Below, one piece after another: positions 2,226 through 16,788 of a stretch of DNA of 18,473 nucleotides. Source of the stretch: Entrophospora sp. SA101 (Eukaryota; Glomeromycota; Glomeromycetes; Entrophosporales; Entrophosporaceae); contig CAUDNR010000966.1 in NCBI GenBank assembly GCA_958430865.1, forward strand, positions 1 to 18,473, read 5' to 3'. How positions within the stretch are numbered: position 1 is the first letter of the stretch; each line of letters starts with the position of its first letter. Both the position numbers and the translations under genes were made by a program. The notes beneath the pieces are model-generated. The model saw only the letters and a list, made by a program, of their open reading frames with translations, was not told where the DNA came from and did no database searches.

Positions 2226-5200
2226 ATGAATGAAGGTATTTTTTCTTACACATGAAATAACTATTTAAAAATATGTAGCAATAGTAAAGTATCTTTACAT
2301 CATATTTAATATTTTGCTTTATAATAAAATAATGTTTAGCTAAGTTCTATAAAGGTAATTAATTATATACTTTACAAGATAAACTTTCTTAAGACATCAT
2401 TTAATTGAATAATTTATTTATTATTCTTAGGGAGTAAGTATATTATATCATAAATTGACAAAATAAACTTTATTAAAACATCATCTAATTATTTTTTATT
2501 TCTTTATAATAACCAGTTAGTAAGTGTCATATTATAAATTAACTTTGATAACACAAAATAAACTTTATTAAAGCATCATCTAATTAAATAATTTTATTTT
2601 TTATTTCTTTGTAATAACCAGGGCGTAAGTATCATGAATTAACTTTTATAACACAAAATAAACTTTATCAAAACATCATCTAATTAAATAAATTTATTTT
2701 TTATTTCATAGAGGGTAAGTAATATATTATAAATTAACTTTACAACACAAATAAGCTTTATTAAAATATCATCTAATTAAATGAATTTATTTTTTTATTT
2801 CTAGAGCGTAAGTAATATATTATAAATTTAACTTTTACAACACAAAATAAACTTTATATAATCAAATAAATTTATTTTTTATCCCTAGGGAGTAAGTATA
2901 TATTATAAATTAACTTTTACAACACAAAATTAACTTTATCTAATTAAATAATTTTATTTTTTATTTCATAGAGGGTAATCTTTATATTATAAATTAACTT
3001 TTATAACACAAAATAAACTTTATCTAATTAAATAATTTTATTTTTTATTTCACAGATAGTAAGTACTATATTATAAATTAACTTTTACAACACAAAATAA
3101 ACTTTATCTAATTAAATAATTTTATTTTTTATTTCTTTATAATAACCAGTTGGCAAGTATTATATTATAATTTAACTTTAACAAAATAAGCTTTATCTAA
3201 TTAAATAATTTTATTTTTTATTTCATAGATTGTAAGTACTATATTATAAATTAACTTTTATAACACAAAATAAGCTTTATCAAAACATCATCTAATTAAA
3301 TATTTTTATTTTTATTTCATAGACAGTAAGTACTATATTATAAAATTAACTTCTATAACACAAAATAAACTTTATCTAATTAAATAAATTTATTTTCTAT
3401 TTTTTATAATAACCAGTTGGTGATTATTATATTATAAATTAACTTTTACAACACAAAATAAAACATCATCTAATTAAAAATTTTATTTTTTATTTCATAG
3501 ATGGTAAGTATTATGTTATAAATTAATTTTTACAACACAAAATAAACTTTATCTAATTAAATAAAATTTGTTTTTTTACTTCATAGATAGTAAGTATTAT
3601 ATTACAAATTAACTTTAACAACACAAAATAAACTTTATCTAATTAAATAAATTTATTCTTTATTTCTTTATAATAACCAGTTGGTAAGTATTATATTATA
3701 AATTAATTTTACAATACAAAATAAACATCATCTAATTAAATAAAATTTTTTTTATTTCATAGATGGTAAGTATAATATTATAGATTAACTTTTACAACAC
3801 AAAATAAACTTTATATAATTAAATAAATTTTATTCTTTATTTCTTTATAATAAACAGTTGGTAAATATTATATTATAATTTAGCTTTTACAACACAAAAT
3901 AAAACATCATCTAATTAAATAATTTTATTTTTTATTTCATAGATGGTAAGTAATTATAATTAACTTTTACAACACAAACTTTATCTAATTAAATATACTT
4001 CTTTTTTATTTCTTTATAATAATCAGTGGGTAAGTATTAAATTATAAATTAATTTTTACAACACAAAATAAACATAATCTAATTAAATAATTTTATTTTT
4101 TATTTCTCCAGTTAGTAAGTATTATATTATAAATTAACTTTTACAACATATTAAACTTTATCTAATTAAATAAATTTATTTTTTATTTCATAGAGGGTAA
4201 GTACTATATTATAAATTAACTTTTACAACACAAAATAAACTTTAAATAAATTCATTTTTTATTTCATAGAGTGTAAGTATTATATTATAAATTAACTTTT
4301 ACAAAACAAAATAAACTTTATCTAATTTAAATAAATTTATTTCTTATTTCATAGGGTGTAAGTATTGTATTACAAATTAACTTTTACAACACAAAATGAA
4401 CTTTATCAAAACATCATCTAATTAAATATTTTTATTTTTTATTTCTTTAAAATAACCAGTGAGTAAGTATTATATTATAAATTAACTTTTACAACATATT
4501 AAACTTTATCTAATTAAATAAATTTATATTTAATTCTTAGGGAGTAAGTATTATATTATAAATTAACTTTTACAACACAAAATAAACTTTATCTAATTAA
4601 ATAAATTTATTTTTAATTCTTAGAGAGTAAGTATTATATTATAAATTAACTTTTACAACACAAAATAAACATCATCTAATTAAATAATTTTATTTTTTAT
4701 TTCTTTATAATAACCAGGGCGTAAGTATTATATTATAAATTAACTTTACAGCACAAAGCAAACTTAATTAAATATTATCTAATTAATAAATTTATTTTTT
4801 ATAATAATAGTGAGTAAGTATCATATTATAAAATTAACTTTTACAACACAAAGTAAACTTTATCTAATTAAATAAATTTATTTTTTATTTAATAGATGGT
4901 ATTATATTATAAATTAACTTTTTCAACACAAATAAGCTTTATTAAAACATCATCTAATTAATAAATCTTCTTTACAATAATCAGGGAGTAAGTATCATAT
5001 TATAAAATTAACTTTTACAACACAATAAATTTTATTAAAACATCAACTAATTAATAAATTTATTTTCTTTATAATATAACCAGCATGTAAGTAATTTTTA
5101 CAATGCATGCAAAATAAGCTTTTATAACATCATCTAATTAAATACTTTTTATTTTTTCATAATAACCAGCTGGTAACTTTTATCAACACAAAATAATTTT

Positions 5201-6822
5201 TACCAAAACCTTGTCTAATTAAATAAATTTATTTTTTGTTTTAAATGAATGTCTATTTTTATTATGCTGAAAAATAATTCTATTTTACTTTGAATTTTTT
5301 ATAATGAAAAATTTAATTTTTGAAATAATAAGATAATACTAAGGAGTTTAAAGAAAGAAAAGAAGAATATGGGACCTGTTCTGTTTGTGCAAGATATAAC
5401 ACTAATTACCAGTGGTGTCAATCATGTGATCCTAAATTGTTAGCTCAAAGTTGGACAAGCAGTGGGAATCAAAAATTAGATGAAATAATCAGAAATACAC
5501 AGCTTGAAGCCAAAGGATTTGATAGTTATCATTACCTTGAATGGATTCTTTATGACCAACTCACAATTGAAGAAAGAATAGGTGAAGGTGGTTTTGCAAC
5601 TGTGTATAAGTGTTACTGGTCAAATGGTCCTAGATTTGTTCATGAAAATGAAAGATACTATTGTGTAAATGGTGATGTAGCATTAAAAAAGGTTAAAAAC
5701 TCACAAAACATTTCTGAAGAGTTTTTAAAGGAGGTAAATAATTTGATATAATTAATTGACAATTATTAATGATTTTTAATTAATACATTAAATTTTTATT
5801 AATTTTCATAAAGCTTCAAAATCACATTAAATTTATAGGACCATATCATAATGGCATTGTTAATATTTATGGCATTTCACAAGATCCAAATACAAAAGAA
5901 TATGTTTTAATAATGAGATATGCAGCTGATGGAGATTTTAAAAAATTTTTAAAACCAAATTATGCAAGATGGAGTGATAAGATTGAAAAACTTTATAATA
6001 TTATCTCAGGTTTAAACACACTTCATCAAGAAAAACTTATACATGGTGATCTTCACAGTGGTAATATTTTATATTTTCCATATTTATCTGAGGCAATGAT
6101 TACAGATTTAGGGTTATCAGGCCCAGCTGATGAAGAAACATCAAGTAAAAGTAAAAATAATATATTTGGAGTACTGCCATATGTTGCACCAGAGGTATTA
6201 AATAAGAAACCTTATACACAAAAATCTGATATCTATAGCTTTGGGATTTTGATGTCAGAAACATCAATGCATCAACAGCCATTTGAAGATCAACCACATG
6301 ACCTAGATCTTGCTTTCAAGATCTGTGGTGGCTTAAGGCCTAGTTTTTCAGATAATACTCCAGAATGTTATATCAAGTTAGCATACAAATGCACAGATGC
6401 TGATCCTGAAAAAAGACCAACAGCAGATGAAATTTTAAAAATTATTGGTTTTTGGAAAGATGCAATTTTTATTGATGATGAAAATCTAAAATTAAGTAAT
6501 CCTATTTATTCTAAAGAACAGCTTGATGAATTAGAAGAAATAAGAAAAATATTTGAGAAAGCAGATAAAAAATTCTTTGATCCTTCAACAATTACAGTAA
6601 CTGTTCATCCAAATGCTGTTTATACAAGTAGATTATTGAATTTTGAAAATCTTCCTCAACCTGTAAACTCCAATAAAGTTACAATTATTAGTAATAATTA
6701 TAGTAATTATCTAATTTATTGTTATATATTTAATCTTATTATTTATTATTAATGATATTTTAAATTATTTAGAATCTCAACAAATTGAATTAACTATACC
6801 AGATGATTTAATTTATGAATGA
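2226..6822 (+). CDS. TKL-like protein kinase with Cys-rich N-terminus and single-codon microexon array
   Basis: Predicted exons are 2226-2235, 2340-2354, thirty-two 3-nt exons between 2431 and 5172, 5333-5733, 5814-6690 (or 6702) and 6773-6822. They give 482 (or 486) aa. Numbering from the ATG at 2226: acidic then basic N-terminal segment 9-41 from the microexons; likely zinc-binding Cys pairs at C56/C59 and C69/C72; glycine loop from about 123 (IGEGGFATVY); lysine K159 in VALKK; catalytic loop HGDLHSGN with D253 and N258; DLG with D272; APE 299-301; D313 in DIYSFG. The key catalytic residues are present, so it should phosphorylate proteins; the substrate is unknown. HRD is HGD (non-RD) and DFG is DLG. 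Such kinases are greatly expanded in Glomeromycotina. The last intron has two phase-1 donors (6691, 6703) and acceptor AG 6771-6772; both end in TIPDDLIYE. The kinase body is near certain; the microexon 5' part is a strong prediction. An in-frame upstream ATG at 2145 would add 27 residues. Confidence 0.8.
2340..2354 (+). other. 15-nt exon 2 of the kinase gene
   Basis: This short segment is bounded by TTTAG (AG at 2338-2339) and the donor GTAATT at 2355. It enters and leaves in phase 1 and encodes A-K-F-Y-K when joined to the G of the ATG exon (donor GTATTT at 2236). The preceding intron, 2236-2338, is 103 nt. The next intron, 2355-2430, resembles the array units and leads into the first 3-nt exon. 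The inference rests on splice consensus and phase only. Confidence 0.6.
2355..5172 (+). repeat. Tandem array of intron-like units separated by 32 three-nt microexons
   Basis: Units are 76-105 bp and diverged. Each has GTAAGT at the start, a conserved TTATAAATTAACTTTTACA block, ACAAAATAAACTTTATCTAATTAA in the middle (a CTAAT branch-point-like motif about 35 nt before the end), a T-rich tract, and CATAG, ACCAG or CTTAG. Three bases always separate that AG from the next GT. The 3-nt exons begin at 2431, 2517, 2622, 2712, 2805, 2889, 2972, 3056, 3150, 3229, 3323, 3417, 3501, 3587, 3681, 3763, 3858, 3943, 4027, 4112, 4194, 4270, 4355, 4460, 4541, 4624, 4718, 4811, 4896, 4985, 5084 and 5170. Introns between them are 73-102 nt. 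Joined in phase 1 they are open throughout; part of the product reads KDIDYIDDIDVDVVKEW. The other two frames contain stops. The array is certain as a repeat; its splicing is inferred. Confidence 0.9.
5173..5332 (+). other. Last array-side intron of the kinase gene (160 nt)
   Basis: The donor is GTAACT at 5173. The first half is a normal array unit, including CTAATTAAATAAATTTATTT at about 5215, but it lacks the terminal AG and microexon. No AG occurs until AATAATAAG (5331-5332), which leaves AT-AAT-ACT in the kinase frame and removes an in-frame TAA at 5329-5331. The phase (two bases completing G+AT) matches the preceding microexon. It looks like a decayed 33rd unit fused to the original intron end. 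Confidence 0.6.
5333..6690 (+). other. Core exons of the kinase (Cys-rich segment and catalytic domain)
   Basis: Exon 5333-5733 encodes the CxxC pairs, the linker TSSGNQKLDEIIRNTQ and the N-lobe up to FLKE. The intron 5734-5813 (GTAAAT...AAAG) is phase 0 and contains an in-frame TAA. Exon 5814-6690 begins LQNHIKFIGPYHNG and carries the rest of the N-lobe and the whole C-lobe. Removing the intron restores the usual FLKE-LxNH...IVNIYGISQDP continuity of this family. If the upstream array were not spliced as predicted, this region would still encode a nearly complete kinase without an obvious start codon. Confidence 0.93.
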
Positions 6823-8094: not shown

Positions 8095-8670
8095 GTGATG
8101 TTAATATAGTCTCTTATTGATGGAATAATTGCACAACCTAATATGAAAGAAGAAAATTATATGGAAAAATAAATTACTATATAATCATAAACATACAACA
8201 ATCGCGAGAACAAGTACAATAAATAATATGATATCATTGAATTAGAACCTCCTGATAGATATACACAGTAAGAAAGAGAAAACCGCCATCATGCAAATTA
8301 ATTTCTGCTAACAACAGGGCATTGTCACTCTCGTCACGTAAAGCACCTTGTTATCCTGCTTGCTAATCAATACTCCTTGCACCATTAGAATGTATCACTA
8401 TTACTACCTGCCTGATCAATTTCATTAAATCATGTGACTAAACGTGTATAAAATTCTATAAAAGAATTTCAATACAAGAACAAGAACCAACCAAAGAAAG
8501 TAGCATTCATATAACCATCATATTCTCCTCATAATCCTAGAAATACAAAGGCAGAAAATGAATCCAAATTGATAATAATCTATGAAAAAAATAAACTTAT
8601 CTATACTGGCTTGAATAACTTGATAGTATCAAATCATACAAACTCTTAAGTGAGTTTGTCTCCAAAAAAA
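8095..8670. other. Intergenic DNA, no gene seen
   Basis: No ORF of note. The stretch 8290-8560 is less AT-rich than its surroundings and includes TATAAAA/TATAAAAG at about 8450-8465, followed by an A- and C-rich stretch (CAAGAACAAGAACCAACC). It looks like promoter or LTR-type sequence without a gene attached. It ends at the right arm of the inverted repeat. Confidence 0.35.
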
Positions 8671-8744
8671 CAAATCAATTACGTTACAAGAGAAGAGAGG
8701 GAAAATGAAATAGGATCAAGCAAAATCAATCAAATTGTTCACCA
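8671..8744 (-). repeat. Right arm of the 74-bp perfect inverted repeat
   Basis: Exact reverse complement of 1-74. Outside the arm (8745 onward) comparison is impossible because the partner side lies beyond the window. Inside it, the sequences diverge at once after about three bases (8668). A sharp inner boundary with no mismatch in 74 bp implies a recent or conserved repeat. Confidence 0.9.
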
Positions 8745-9959: not shown

Positions 9960-12726
9960 ATGTCAGTTATCGTGACTACTAAAATTCCTCAGAATGCAGT
10001 GTTTTTCGCAGGTGAAAGATTTCGTTGTGAGATCACATTCACATGTCCTTACAGTTATTCAGGAAGAGTTACAACAGAAGATAAAACTCATGGTATGAAT
10101 ACTAAAATTTTTTCGATATTTTTCGAGACCTGTTAAAGAATTGAAATCTTCAGATAAAAGTTTAGAAAAAAAAGATCAGCTTCATTGATTGGCAAATTGC
10201 ATCAACTTTTTAATTATTAGCAGGAAATAACGTTAATTCACAAATTTCCACCAATCATCCTTTCGCCAACCTCCCAACCTCCACCACCAATTCTACCACT
10301 ACTAATGCGACTATTGCTAAAACTTCAAATACAATAAAATCTGAGACAAAAACAGTGAACAGCGAAGAAAATTCCAACTCTGACACAAATGAAAATAACG
10401 GTAAACATATCTGTTATTATTCTTATTATTTTTGTTTGATATTTGAATGGATTTTTCTAACTAATTGGTAATATAAATAAGACAAGGTCGCCACACCCTT
10501 GACGGAATCATTTCATTTTGCAGATGCAGAAATAGATGAAGAAGGTGGATTGATTAATTTGCATAAAGCGGACATTAGTGATACCATTTCCATTAGTGAT
10601 TATGACACAACTGAATCAACGCCAAGAAGCTCAGTTGATTTTTACGGTATTGGCTATTCAGATAGAGGTAGTGGTACTTGGAATGGATCACTAATAGATT
10701 ATAAAAAATACAATATCAGCAGACATTCCTCGAATGGATTTAGATGCAGTTCATCACCTTCCTTAACTCAAAAATATGAAACGTTACTGTGGGGTTTTGC
10801 TCAGATTGTAGGACAATTTACTGTAGATGCTTCATTGATTAAATCTATCGAGTTTGAACCATTGAAAACAAAAACAATGTATCGACCAGCTAGTGGAAAT
10901 GGAGCAGGTGGAGCAGTTGGTGGTGGAACATTGGGAATATTTTCACCAAACTCGATGAATCAATCGAGTTTGGCTGATCTTCAAGAAAGAGCTGGTATTA
11001 ATTATATATTATATTTGTTTATTCATATATATATATATTATTATTATTGTGTATTAAAGAATTTTTTTTTAGATAGCAAATCTATTCCTGTATTTTCAAC
11101 ACCACCTTCAATACTATTCTGTGATTTACACTTGGCACCTGGAGAATCACAAACTTGTAATATTTTAATAATAACAATAGTCTTAATCATAATAACCGTT
11201 TTTATTTCTTAATGCCTGACAAATTCGAATTTTAATGGTTAGACACATATGAATCAAGGCTACCAAATGATCTACCTCCTACACATCGAGGCAAAGCAAT
11301 AAAATTCTATTATAATTTAATAATTGGAACTCATCGGGGATTAATGAATCATCAATCACACATAGTGCAGCTACCGTTTAGAGTATTTAATTATGTGTCT
11401 GGTGAGTAATTAATTGTTTTATAATCAAAATTTTTATTTGTTCACATGGTTATTTTACTAAATTTAGTCATCTTTTTTATTGATAAAAGAGGATGGTTCG
11501 AGGCCTGTTTATGATCTGATGAACCCTGTAGTTATATACAAAGATGAAGCAGTGATAACATTTAAGGAGGATATGCCAAAGCCAAAATTAGTTAAAAAAA
11601 GAGGTCAAAATTCTCTTGCCTAGGTATCTTTTTTAGACAAAGTTATTATACTATAATAAATATTGATTATTTTTTAAAATCTCTTTTTTTTGTAGATGAT
11701 AAACGTGAAGAATTTATGGATTATATTAAAAAACTTGTCCAAAACATGAATAAAGATGATCAATCAACAGATAAAGATGAGGAAGAGACGGAAAGTAATA
11801 GTAGTAGGAATGGTAGGAATGATAGTGATAATTATGTATTTGTTGAAAAATCCGAGACACCAGTAGCAAACACCACATCAATTTTGTCAAAAAATATGAG
11901 AAAAAGTATTAAATTCATATTATTTGTGTAGGGAAATGGATTTTCTAATTGGCTAAAATAAATAAAAAACTAATTAAATATTTTTATTAATTAATAATTA
12001 ACAATTAGCGAATTATGACATTTGTAAAAATAATCAAAGAGTTGCACAATTATGCCTTTTGAAAACATCTTATCGATTAGGTGATATTGTCACTGGAATT
12101 GTAAATTTCAATGGCGCTGTTATACCAAGTTTTCAGGTATAGTTCCTGTCAAATCAATAAGACTATTATTATTATCTAGTAATTTTGATCACAATAACAA
12201 TAATAATAATAATATTATAATAATATAGGTATCAATTACTCTGGAAAATAGTGAAATAGTGGAATCATCTATTGCTAAACGTCCACAAAATCAGATTTCA
12301 CGTCAAACGCGTAAAGTACATGGAGAACATCATGAGTTTTGTCTTAATTCAGAGAGGATCAGCTTTTCCATTTCCATCCCAACGCATGCCACCCCCGATT
12401 TTTCTACAACAGGAGGTATGTGTATATATATATCTAAAATTAATTTTTTACTGTCCTCATATTAATTATTCAATTAAATTTACTAAATAAATTTTTTTTT
12501 TAATCTAGTGAAACTTCAATGGGGTATAAGACTAGAATTCATTACTGGTCCGAAAGGTCATGTTCCATTGGTAACTTTAACTGCCGATGAACGGCATCAT
12601 TATTATCAAGCTGTTGAGGATGTTAGGGTGGAAACCTTTGATTGTTTTATTCCAATAAAAGTATATCCAACATCTTATGAATCTGCACGGACGTTTCCTT
12701 CTCATCACACATTTCGCGTAACATAG
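9960..12726 (+). CDS. RGP1: Rgp1, subunit of the Ric1-Rgp1 exchange factor for Ypt6/Rab6
   Basis: Ten exons join in frame to 627 aa: 9960-10092, 10221-10400, 10524-10994, 11073-11156, 11243-11401, 11490-11603, 11696-11905, 12009-12136, 12229-12415 and 12509-12726. Rgp1 pairs with Ric1 at the Golgi and activates the Rab GTPase Ypt6 (Rab6), supporting retrograde transport to the trans-Golgi. The N-terminus (VIVTTKIPQNAVFFAGERF, then an ITF strand) has the arrestin-like beta pattern of the family. Exons 2-3 are a Ser/Thr/Asn-rich, poorly conserved insert. Conserved blocks include LPPTHRGKAIKFYYNLIIG in exon 5, NNQRVAQLCLLKTSYRLGD in exon 8 and the end VKLQWGIRLEFIT in exon 10. The length is close to that of yeast Rgp1 (about 660 aa). 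Eight of nine introns are phase 1. The donor after exon 6 (GTCAAA) is weak, and the exon 7 donor (GTATTA at 11906) was chosen by phase. The family call is confident; one or two splice sites less so. Confidence 0.88.
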
Positions 12727-12752
12727 TATTGTATGCTATTTTAAATTTTTTA

Positions 12753-12788: not shown

Positions 12789-13205
12789 AAGGACATTATA
12801 GATTTTCTTTAATTATTTATGAATTTTTTTCTAATAATTATATTTTTAAATATATTAAATAAATTATTAATTTATAAAGCTTTCTTAATTATATTTTTTT
12901 TTTGTATCATATATATTAATTATGTTTTATTTTTTCTTTCCCACATTATATATATAATAAGTCATTTAAATAATTTCCGGAAAAATTTTTCTATTTACTA
13001 TATAAAACTTTATAAAACTTTATAATAAAAAATAAAAATAATATGTTTTTTTTATAATAAAAACAACTCATTTTAATATTAAATAAATTAAAATTACTAT
13101 ACATATTTTATTGTCTATAATAATCTACAAATAAATTAAATTTAACCTTCTAAAAACTATTATTATTATTGTTATTATTATTATAATCTTTTTAATCACA
13201 ACCAA

Positions 13206-16200
13206 TTAATCAACAATATTCCAAGTACTAAGCCATTTTCTACCGTGATAATCTCTACTAGGATAATCCATACCAAATACAATATCTTTAAACCATAAGA
13301 ATACTCCTACAACCAACAAATACATTATACCAAAGACTATTGCTTTTGTTTTTGGTTTTAGAGAAGAAGTGAAATGATCAAATAAAAATCCTACTAATAA
13401 TATCTTAAAATATAAAGCTGGAAAATAATGATGTAAATAAGTCACTCTACCCATAATACAAAATGGTATATAATGTAAAAACCATCCTATACAACATAAT
13501 TTTCCAACATATAAGAAATGTGCCCATTGTGCTAAAAAAAAAAAAAGATAAAATTTAGGATAAATAATTTTTTTTAAAAAAAAAAAACTCTAAATTATTA
13601 ATTAATTACCTGATGAAAAATCTGAATACTTTCTTTGTGCTCTAATAATATACCAGGCAAATAAAAACACAAAAATTATCAAAGAAGCAGTGCCCGACCA
13701 CCATACAATAGGGTTACCAAGTAAATAATATTTTACTGCATCATCAGCCCAACTACACATACGTAAACCAACTTCTACTATTGGCCATTGACGGGGCGTT
13801 GATGCTAAAATATCTTCTTTATCAGGATCCGGTACAAGTGCATTGTTGGTTGTATACATTGCTACATTTAAATGCCAAAAATCATGTAAAAATTTTGACT
13901 TATAAACTGCTTGTTTTCCAGGTGGCACTATATATCGTTTATTTTTTTAAATATGGATATATATTAATATTAAAAGAATTTATTCGATAAATATAAAAAA
14001 AAAAATTATAATAAACATGTAAATATTACATTTATCGTTCCAATGTTTTTCAATATTCCAATGAGTATGAACATCTCTAGGATTGTTTCTTTTATCACAA
14101 GTAACTTCGACCTGTTTAAATCCCCATTGTGGCAAAATAGAATTAGCAGCTCTTAAATAACATCCAAGGGTATGATGTTTAAATCTAAATGCAGTCGTCA
14201 AGGATCTAATTTTATCATCAGTTTTGCCATATAAAATATCACCGACTACTTCTATATTCCAATAATCATTCTTGTCACCGATTGTATCATTACCATATCC
14301 ACTAACTTCATATTGTGATTTTGTAATTGGCGCATTGACTGGATGGCTGTGTAAATTTCTACCTGTGTTTACATGTAATAATCTTACAACATCGTTATTT
14401 TTAACAAATTCTATTTCAGTCTCGTTATTTATTGTTAAGTTATCTCTTGGTTTATTCACGATCCAATCATTGTTTACATCCTTATAATGATAACATGTGA
14501 CTTGCTGTTGTTCTGATCCTGTTGGATATGTTTGAACATGTGAATGTAAAAGACCACCACCATAACCCATGTTTTTAATGGTAATTTTAGAACCATATGC
14601 TAATTCTATAATAATTGATTATTGTGTTTATGCAGTAGCATTGGAATATAAACCGTAAATAAGCAAATTATAAATTAGAAAAAAAGAAAATCGCTTGTTT
14701 TTTTTTCTCGAGAATAATAACTACCTAAAGGATTATTAGAAAAATCATTTCCTCTAAGACCTGCTTGAAACAAAGAACTCATCTGAGCATCGCCCGGCCC
14801 ACTATTATGTAAAATTGCAAAATGTATAGCAAAACATCCCATATAAATTAGGATTGGCAATATAATCAAACATACAATTCTGGCAATCCAATGTTTAAGA
14901 TAAATCATCTATAAAATTTTTTCGATGTTAACAATAATCAGATAAATATTTGCATTCTGTCGATTAATATATATTATAGTTACTTTTGGCATAGTTAAAT
15001 CTCCAAACTTATCCCAAAGATCTTCTATTGTGTAAATTCCAACTAAAGCGGTAACAAAAAGTCCAACCCATTTGACACTTTTAGGAAGTAATTTTATAAT
15101 TAATTAATAAGAAATTTTATTGAAAATTTTATATCAATGAAATAAATCATTATTATAAATAATAATAGATTAACTAACCTTGAAACACATCCGATGAATG
15201 CACCTGTTAAAAATAACCAAAGCCACCAATCGATTGAAAAAGGTCTTTAAAAAAATTATTAGTTTTTTTAATCTTTCTTTTTTTTTAATAAAAAAAATTA
15301 TTATTTACTTACTCTTGTCGCATATTGTGAAATTTTACCAAACAAAATGTAGTTGCAAATGTAAAGAATAATAACATAGAGTCTAAAAGAATAAATCGAC
15401 TAATGCAAGCATAAGCGGTATCTAATAAGGATAAAATAAATTTTCACATTAATACATATAATTTGTAGTTGATCATTAAACAAAATTCTGATATATACAT
15501 ATATATATGTAAATATATGTACCAAATAAAACCATCAAAGTAACCAGGATTGTAGCATATAATGAAAAATCCAATTCAAGTGCTGTAAAATAAGCCAAAG
15601 GAGTCATCAAAGCACCAAAAGATGCTAAAAATACTCTCATAAATACATAATTTACATCATCGGGGTATTTTTCACCAGATGGAAAATCAAAATGTCCATT
15701 ATATCCTGCTAATAAACCTGCTAAACCAACAAGCATTTTTCCAAGGGGTGGATGGACATCAAAATAAAATTCCCTTTTAAGGTAATATGATCCAAACTAT
15801 TGATTGAATGATCAGTATTATTATTTTTAAAAGAAAATTAATTTTTTTTGTTTTAATTTTTTTAAATTTATTTACCTTTCCAAAATGAGCCTTTTCATGA
15901 TATTAAACAATAATTTAAATATTAGTATTAATATTGAATCGAATTTTGTGTAAATGGATAATTAAAAGATGTTTTACTTACCTCATCCCACACAACAATA
16001 TTTGATAATGAAATTAAATAAAATCTTGTCCAAAATGATAAAAATGTAAAAAATACGGGCAATAAAATATCATAATTTTCAAAACAAAATGCAAGATACT
16101 TTTTTTTTGAAAATGAAAAAGTTATTATTAAGAGAATCTTGGATCAAGAAAAAATCAATTGATAATAAATAATATATTTATATCTATATAGTTTACCTTG

Positions 16201-16385
16201 TTTTGAGGTAAACGTATTGGTTTTAAAAATTTTCCATTTTCATCATATTCAGAAGGTTCTAAAGGAATGGGGTGGTAAGCATTTTTAGAGTAGGGAGAGC
16301 CGTTTATATTTGTTAGATGCCTTCGTTTTAAATTGTCTATTTCTGATGAACTGTTTCCATTACTGATATTGTTGTCGTTTGACAT
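13206..16385 (-). CDS. PMT2: PMT2-type dolichyl-phosphate-mannose protein mannosyltransferase
   Basis: Eleven exons on the minus strand: 16385-16197, 16098-15982, 15890-15876, 15796-15523, 15421-15313, 15244-15179, 15077-14984, 14908-14725, 14605-14030, 13927-13610 and 13531-13206. They give 755 aa, close to yeast Pmt2 (759). The enzyme transfers mannose from dolichyl-phosphate mannose to Ser/Thr of secretory proteins in the ER; in yeast Pmt2 works as a heterodimer with Pmt1. Visible features: catalytic-loop acidic pair in WDEAHFGKFG (D101, E102); HPPLGKML from about 122; several hydrophobic membrane segments; luminal MIR repeats at about 365-530 with [25 protein letters not shown] and LHSHPV motifs; [16 protein letters not shown]; a C-terminal membrane bundle with [16 protein letters not shown]. 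The WDEAHFG and [10 protein letters not shown] blocks fit the PMT2 subfamily rather than PMT1 or PMT4. Start: ATG at 16385 chosen (MSND); an in-frame ATG at 16409 would add eight residues. Exon 3 is only 15 nt. Confidence 0.93.
15876..15890 (-). other. 15-nt exon 3 of PMT2
   Basis: This phase-0 microexon encodes A-H-F-G-K, the residues directly after the catalytic D-E pair. It is bounded by acceptor AAAAG and donor GTAAAT on the minus strand. Protein conservation (WDE-AHFGK-FGSYY) makes it certain that it is spliced in. It shows that this genome can splice very small exons. Confidence 0.88.
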
Positions 16386-16788
16386 TATATCAATTTTAAT
16401 GGCAGTCATTAATGTAAATGTAGAAAAAAGAATGTTCTCAGTTGAGTGGTTATTTTTTATTATTAATAACAAAATAAAATTTTAATATATTGATTAGGTT
16501 AAAAATAAAATTTAAATAAAGACACGTGGTTTTATTTATTTTGTTAAAGGAAAATACGTCATTTTTACAAACTTGAGAATTTTTTTTTTTATATATAACT
16601 AATTCAAAAAATATCAACTAAAATCCCTTTCCATAAAAAGTAAGTATTCGCCGATAATTTCCCTTAGTTTGTGTCACTATGAAGTTTTGCACCAATAAAA
16701 AATAACCAAAATTTTTTTAATTGAATTAAAATGCGCTTTGCGCAATACAAAAATAAAATTACTTCTCAATGTATAAAATTCAATGTGC
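16386..16788. promoter_or_regulatory. Upstream region of PMT2
   Basis: Non-coding DNA between the PMT2 start and the putative hAT element. It presumably contains the PMT2 promoter. The open frame does extend upstream to 16472, but this part is low complexity and unlike PMT proteins. No specific factor site is identified. Confidence 0.45.

Follow-up and report, generated by a model that had tools for sequence, protein, structure and literature searches.

Can a gene carry dozens of consecutive exons of a single codon each, and would such exons leave a trace in the genome? The question is raised by a locus of the glomeromycotinan fungus Entrophospora sp. SA101 on contig CAUDNR010000966.1 (C852 among the 2123 contigs of the 101 Mb assembly GCA_958430865.1). 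The whole contig, 18,473 nucleotides (nt) long and with a G+C content of 25%, was analysed and is referred to here as the window. An initial annotation of this DNA had read a tandem repeat ahead of a kinase gene as 32 consecutive exons of 3 nt, separated by short introns and read in phase 1. This reading is supported by an order-dependent avoidance of stop codons over 32 arrays of the same genome, and the array is very probably a series of single-codon exons that are all retained, in their genomic order, at the 5' end of the spliced kinase mRNA, where they would encode a fast-changing N-terminal stretch of, in the window, 32 residues.

Probable codon-sized exons upstream of a kinase gene

All 32 triplets that had been claimed are present (the first at 2431-2433, the last at 5170-5172), each preceded by AG and followed by a donor that starts with GT in 31 cases and with GC in one (3153), and the two exons ahead of them, of 10 nt with the ATG and of 15 nt, match their description (Table 1). 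The range of 73-102 nt given for the introns holds for the 32 introns from 2355 to 5169, but the first (104 nt) and the last (160 nt) fall outside it. Joined together, the two leading exons and the triplets form 121 nt (MNEAKFYKGIRQERKDIDYIDDIDVDVVKEWLRKRLNGTS) with zero stops that meet the kinase frame at 5333, as annotated, and the predicted product begins with MNEAKFYKG-IRQERKDIDYIDDIDVDVVKEWLRKRLNGTS-DNTKEFKERKEEYGTCSVC... In phase 2 the window array has 7 stops, and full inclusion in phase 0 is precluded by its two TGA triplets. The AG at 5331-5332 that ends the last intron is the first past the last donor, as 5173-5330 is without AG, and the in-frame stop that this acceptor was said to remove is indeed there, a TAA directly before 5332. 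To call it the only available acceptor was an overstatement, however, since AGs ending at 5353, 5362 and 5365 would likewise keep the frame. Kinase exon 1 lacks a Met of its own and is directly preceded by an in-frame stop, so that a start further upstream is needed, which apparently comes from the array and the two exons that lead it. The array-less relatives L052 and L053 of the same genome instead have their own Met some 25 residues ahead of the cysteine motif.

Stop codons are avoided across introns

The phase to be expected was fixed beforehand by the flanks, as phase 1 is both what the leading exons of 10 and 15 nt leave and what kinase exon 1 requires. A phase-1 codon takes its first base from the end of one triplet and its other two from the start of the next triplet, about 90 nt away; without splicing of the array, the order of the triplets could not matter. 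Along with the window, 36 array loci (L009-L044) were extracted from the genome, and the order of their triplets was compared with shuffled orders in two sets, one of 19 arrays with 271 triplets (set 1) and one, extracted separately, of 13 arrays with 171 triplets (set 2). The pooled 32 arrays (442 triplets) contain 2 phase-1 stops in 410 joins, against 21.5 by shuffling (0 of 20,000 shuffles were as low), and the identical triplets taken in reversed order give 33. Set 1 has 1 phase-1 stop vs 11.9 expected (1 of 20,000 shuffles as low) and set 2 has 1 vs 9.6. The counts are 2 vs 21.2 after removal of a tail that many arrays share, 2 in 226 vs 14.1 when each distinct pair of neighbours is counted once, 2 vs 14.1 in arrays with a visible kinase exon and 0 vs 7.5 in the others. 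The depletion affects the joins that create a stop (a slash marks the join), viz., T/AG (1 vs 15.5), T/AA (0 vs 3.5) and T/GA (1 vs 2.6), whereas non-stop joins are undepleted (A/AG 14 vs 13.8, C/AG 9 vs 5.6, G/AG 30 vs 19.1). In phase 0, 7 triplets are themselves stops. Since bases some 90 nt apart are constrained jointly, the triplets are likely spliced together.

The two sets leave out the window duplicates L009 and L010 as well as L029a, L030, L031, L033a and L033b, which have another layout or no downstream kinase exon 1 of the family. Also dropped were units whose acceptor is lost (L029a, L032, L044) or, in L020, whose junction is deleted, as well as AAA units of doubtful status in L020 and L032. 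Units with broken donors were retained in L012, L032, L038 and L041, but the one that precedes the first L014 unit was not. With the two AAA units restored, there are 3 phase-1 stops vs 22.1.

A genome-wide family of arrays

The stretch 3000-3400 of the window has at least 211 matches in the genome. The spacing between AG and GT was assessed with two search patterns that allowed 0-12 nt between them and found 136 and 46 places (182), of which 146 were listed. Spacing is 3 in 145 of these 146 (100 of 100 for the first pattern, 45 of 46 for the second), and the reversed patterns gave 0 matches. The sole other value, 7, stems from a GTAAGTAAGT duplication (duplicated GTAA), the first GT of which is also at 3. 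Spacings of 1 and 7 in some other units were considered and rejected, as they arose from triplets starting with AG and from the choice of a later GT, and their contexts show 3 nearly throughout; one unit of L011 can be read with spacing 9 or 3. The junctions were also aligned across the window and 18 loci. Of the 252 sequences, 7 are gapped there; in the other 245, AG is present in all except one, and the entropy is 1.94, 1.38 and 1.90 bits at the triplet columns, compared with 0.11 and 0.17 at the GT columns.

The ATG exon with its donor is found at 61 sites of the genome with at most 2 mismatches (41 exact; reversed control 0), a count that includes three for the window copy and refers to exon and donor alone, not to arrays. 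Among 13 distinct loci that also have the second exon, the ATG exon is 10 nt long in 11, 7 nt in L012 and 13 nt in L028. A CTAAATTCTATAAAG-like second exon is present in 15 rows of loci, two being window duplicates, and is 6 nt long in L025; these lengths of 7, 10 or 13 and of 15 or 6 nt thus keep the phase. The splice signal of the second exon is lost in L016, L021 and L031. Of 37 sources (the window and L009-L044, the two window repeats included), 22 have kinase exon 1 beyond the array, always on the strand of the array, and the remaining sources run into a contig end, N, the end of the extracted stretch or other sequence. The junction before the kinase exon (...AATAAG or AACAAG/AT...) recurs at many paralogous loci, and the tested arrays range from about 7 to 32 triplets.

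A motif, AACAATTGAAG/GTAAAA, is conserved between the last triplet and the kinase exon at many loci (L017, L018, L021) and is missing from the window; it is possibly a decayed unit. In L015, an inserted element with inverted ends (4185-4405) lies inside one array intron and the splice signals on either side are intact. The arrays of L033 (C939:13100-16500), L031, L025 and L027 adjoin kinases of other subfamilies, and the two arrays of L033 are located 3' of a kinase fragment and ahead of pieces resembling a kinase N-lobe.

Diversity of the triplets and change of the arrays

In pairs of near-identical units, the triplet bases differ at a rate of 0.27-0.48, compared with 0.12-0.15 per site in the intron interiors, a two- to fourfold difference, where pairs were picked on one flank and measured on the other and pairs with more than 12 differences there (mostly insertions or deletions) were dropped. 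In the 51 pairs with at most 2 differences in 80 flank positions, the three triplet positions differ at 0.37, 0.27 and 0.47 vs 0.012 per flank site, the selection of such pairs understating flank change. Variation is lowest at the middle base, the wobble base of phase 1 (T 164, G 157, A 25 and C 6 in 352 triplets), and the bases adjacent to the splice sites, at codon positions 2 and 1, can freely be any of the four letters. As an argument and not a test, this pattern would be what amino-acid selection predicts and the opposite of what splice-site constraint would leave. The middle base is nearly always T or G in this A+T-rich genome, and A is rare there.

Two pairs of related arrays, L017/L036 and L018/L023, have some parts in common and others different, as unequal exchange would leave them. 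The tail ATT CTG CTG GGA CAT CTG is common to many arrays and the earlier triplets differ, which suggests that change is greater in the 5' and middle parts of the array.

As a 3-nt exon is not recognisable as an exon, splicing would proceed stepwise, intron by intron, each step removing roughly 90 nt, adding one codon to the growing upstream exon and exposing the next donor. Unequal exchange and conversion between the introns could add, remove and reorder codons with the frame intact; as a near-identical intron surrounds every codon, exchange would never break the frame and the array would act as a frame-safe generator of peptide diversity. A broader proposal, to which we give serious weight while holding it just short of probable, is that the family diversifies its proteins by shuffling single codons, each with its homologous intron, all codons being respliced stepwise, and thereby places variable sensor or docking peptides before kinases, as innate variable receptors outside the NLRs. 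It is somewhat less likely, though still plausible, that the N-terminus is a recognition or docking surface selected for diversity with the kinase as the output, as proposed for truffle receptors.

The kinase and its relatives

Judged by its sequence, the predicted product is a eukaryotic protein kinase with an ordinary kinase domain. It matches PK_Tyr_Ser-Thr (PF07714, 136 bits at a cut-off of 23.1, residues 117-383) and Pkinase (PF00069, 131 bits at a cut-off of 31.7, residues 119-383), with Pkinase_fungal below its cut-off, and the same Pfam search found no NACHT or ankyrin match in it. A lysine in VALKK, the HxD...N residues in HGDLHSGN and a DxG in DLG are present, which we take to be the catalytic motifs of the kinase. 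Among the best 120 of 1245 matches to the full product, the top ones span about exon 2 alone (P0001, 84%), and the named kinase relatives are from Rhizophagus, Gigaspora and Diversispora (about 36-42%). Copies of both kinase exons in one frame, with stops and with 45-56% identity, are present in C1852, C1532 and C390, and no clear retrocopy of a spliced array was seen among the listed rows of 183 matches.

Full inclusion or skipping

The triplets could instead be optional cassettes from which combinatorial alternative splicing makes many peptides per gene, an alternative that is compatible with single-codon exons. The frame is preserved whichever of the 3-nt exons are included, the window has several weak donors (gtgatt, gtatta, gtaact), and alternative splicing is reported, in the sources cited below, for the Tuber melanosporum nank genes. 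Were skipped forms as important as the full one, however, stops would be expected to be avoided in them too, and skip joins form stops near chance. Joins that omit one triplet have 15 stops vs 20.1 (P 0.085), with no clear depletion, and the longer skips among the six skip lengths tried have 18 vs 18.5, 20 vs 17.1, 13 vs 15.6, 8 vs 14.1 (P 0.03) and 10 vs 12.5. As skip joins are not clearly depleted, full in-order inclusion appears to be the selected product. Combinatorial splicing may occur but is not what selection has mainly seen, and we consider it rather unlikely as an explanation of the arrays.

Evidence against single-codon exons, and other explanations

Several points weigh against the reading of the arrays as single-codon exons. 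The acceptor at 5332 in the window is AAG instead of the usual YAG. The triplet lists of sets 1 and 2 were curated manually, and the arrays are akin, so that shuffles overstate their independence, for which the reversed-order and distinct-pair controls compensate partly. Phase 2 is marginally low too (44 stops vs 51.7, P 0.058; 55 vs 63.9, P 0.048, with the five arrays of other layout or lacking the kinase exon added). One of the two phase-1 stops (AGT/GAT) belongs to L028, a locus with a kinase exon beyond the array; its gap between array and kinase exon is about 700 nt, as against 165-250 nt in the window, L017 and L018. The other, in L032, spans a unit with a lost acceptor, and since this unit lies between the two triplets the stop exists only with the unit skipped. 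Counting all 37 arrays gives 7 phase-1 stops vs 29.3, with four added in L030 and one in L029a; that of L029a again spans a broken unit, and L031 and both arrays of L033 have none. L030 (C262:1700-7200), with 47 triplets, shows no avoidance in phase 1 (4 vs 5.8) and only its phase 0 is open. All 47 of its units have spacing 3, a long open reading frame lies upstream, and no kinase of the window family was found adjoining it; L030 is either part of another gene read in another phase, or non-coding.

Two protein searches may be counted on the same side, although they can equally be weighed as neutral. None of the best 120 of 1245 matches to the full product includes array residues, and a search with residues 1-172 gave one match (P0121), which is without them. 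P0121 has its own Met followed by a homologue of kinase exon 1 that continues past the end of this exon.

The stops and broken parts in some loci would be accounted for by a dying gene family, in which the arrays were formerly coding and the copies are now mostly relics. L028 and L029a carry stops, L019, L025 and L027 are followed by other sequence, L015 has its intron insertion, and several copies of kinase exon 2 contain stops. Relaxed copies would gather phase-1 stops, however, and the 442 triplets hold only two, and in the window the frame is open through the kinase domain; we regard such decay as very unlikely.

Still less probable, if only slightly, is an intron-like satellite, i.e., a tandem repeat inside one long intron (2355-5332) in which the 3-nt spacer is a fossil of the founder unit and the mRNA joins 2354 to 5333. 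The unit is indeed a tandem repeat with a period of 83-100, the direct join of 2354 to 5333, which skips the entire array, is also in frame, and some units have broken donors or acceptors. A satellite predicts no link between one triplet and another, yet stops are avoided in phase 1 solely in the true order, and it leaves the triplet highly variable unlike its surroundings while its length is fixed. An assembly artefact is scarcely credible. The window, L009 and L010 do share about 6 kb of identical sequence, each at the start of its contig, and may be one locus assembled thrice, and several arrays reach contig ends or N. The other arrays differ, however, in triplet number, order, content and upstream sequence, and stop avoidance is a biological signal.

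Comparison with known systems

Schistosome micro-exon genes, which encode secreted proteins of flatworms, have exons longer than 3 nt. They share with the arrays many small exons with lengths divisible by three and a variable protein stretch, and differ from them in that the exons are 3 nt here and the gene is a kinase.

The initial annotation had named the schistosome genes as the nearest analogy, but the codon-sized exons of the truffle Tuber melanosporum are closer. Its nank (NACHT-ANK) genes are described, in papers that cite Iotti et al. 2012 (PMC9815663, PMC4986451, PMC3689799, PMC10197012), as having dozens of alternatively spliced 3-bp mini-exons. By these descriptions, the two systems share runs of tens of codon-sized exons in an expanded family of fungal genes, which here are read from the genome sequence alone, and a proposed use in diversifying a protein stretch. 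The truffle genes are ascomycete NLR genes in which the exons belong to the C-terminal recognition part and alternative splicing is reported, whereas the genes described here are glomeromycotinan kinase genes with the predicted exons at the N-terminus and a sequence record that points to full in-order inclusion. Trichoderma Xlr2 (PMC11121469) is described as having one switch-like microexon in a transcription factor, a functional microexon in a filamentous fungus as well, but single and not part of an array. The hnwd WD-repeat genes are described (PMC9815663) as fungal repeat-exchange receptors proposed to act in nonself recognition; they likewise change fast via exchange among near-identical repeats, with the difference that the hnwd repeat is coding whereas here the repeat is an intron and the coding unit one codon. 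A literature search, from whose coverage most subscription journals were absent, found no report of such arrays in kinases or in Glomeromycotina. Codon-sized exons are thus known from truffle NLRs, and what appears to be new, going by the sequences, is their presence in another fungal lineage, in a kinase family and at the N-terminus.

If single-codon exons are indeed spliced here, a fungal spliceosome excises more than 30 introns that flank 3-nt exons from a single short transcript, which is demanding for splice-site recognition, and it does the same throughout a gene family (61 ATG-exon sites, with arrays confirmed at part of them). Codon-sized exons would then have arisen in a second fungal lineage and gene family, with a simple logic of diversity, viz., homologous introns around single codons. 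Stop avoidance across introns means that the genome records the spliced product, and offers an RNA-free test for any genome in which arrays of this type occur. The N-termini of these proteins would be lost from gene models that take no account of 3-nt exons.

Features of the window

Table 1. Exons, introns, array triplets and neighbouring genes in the window
Feature	Position	Strand	Basis or extent
Exon 1, ATGAATGAAG, start codon, 10 nt, exits in phase 1	2226..2235	+	letter-by-letter check
First intron, 104 nt	2236-2339	+	
Exon 2, CTAAGTTCTATAAAG, 15 nt, phase 1 to phase 1, A-K-F-Y-K	2340..2354	+	
Array, 32 units of intron and 3-nt exon	2355..5172	+	letter-by-letter check
Triplets 1-8	2431 GGA, 2517 TTA, 2622 GGC, 2712 AGG, 2805 AGC, 2889 GGA, 2972 AGG, 3056 ATA	+	
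Triplets 9-16	3150 TTG, 3229 ATT, 3323 ACA, 3417 TTG, 3501 ATG, 3587 ATA, 3681 TTG, 3763 ATG	+	
Triplets 17-24	3858 TTG, 3943 ATG, 4027 TGG, 4112 TTA, 4194 AGG, 4270 AGT, 4355 GGT, 4460 TGA	+	
Triplets 25-32	4541 GGA, 4624 AGA, 4718 GGC, 4811 TGA, 4896 ATG, 4985 GGA, 5084 CAT, 5170 CTG	+	
Last intron, 160 nt, 3' end AATAAG, no AG upstream of 5331	5173..5332	+	
Kinase exon 1, DNTKEF..., zinc-knuckle-like CxxC...CxxC stretch, glycine loop, VALKK lysine, no in-frame Met	5333..5733	+	
Ordinary intron within the kinase gene, 80 nt, same size class as the array introns	5734..5813	+	
Kinase exon 2, HGDLHSGN and DLG motifs	5814..6690	+	3' end provisional
Last short exon of the kinase gene	to about 6820	+	extent provisional
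Rgp1 gene	about 9961-12730	+	extent estimated
Protein O-mannosyltransferase gene	13200-16470	-	extent estimated
Open reading frame with zf-C17orf113 match, runs off the contig end	17034-18473	+	extent estimated

The window from 72 to about 6100 is identical to L009 and L010, all three at contig starts, and divergence begins inside kinase exon 2; the three identical stretches represent either one locus assembled three times or a recent conversion. A perfect inverted repeat of 77 bp (1-77 and 8668-8744), one arm of which is at the contig start, is either the end of a mobile element or a feature of the assembly. At gathering thresholds, the window contains no match to a known RNA family. For the mannosyltransferase fragment of the window, the best named relatives come from Racocetra (74%).

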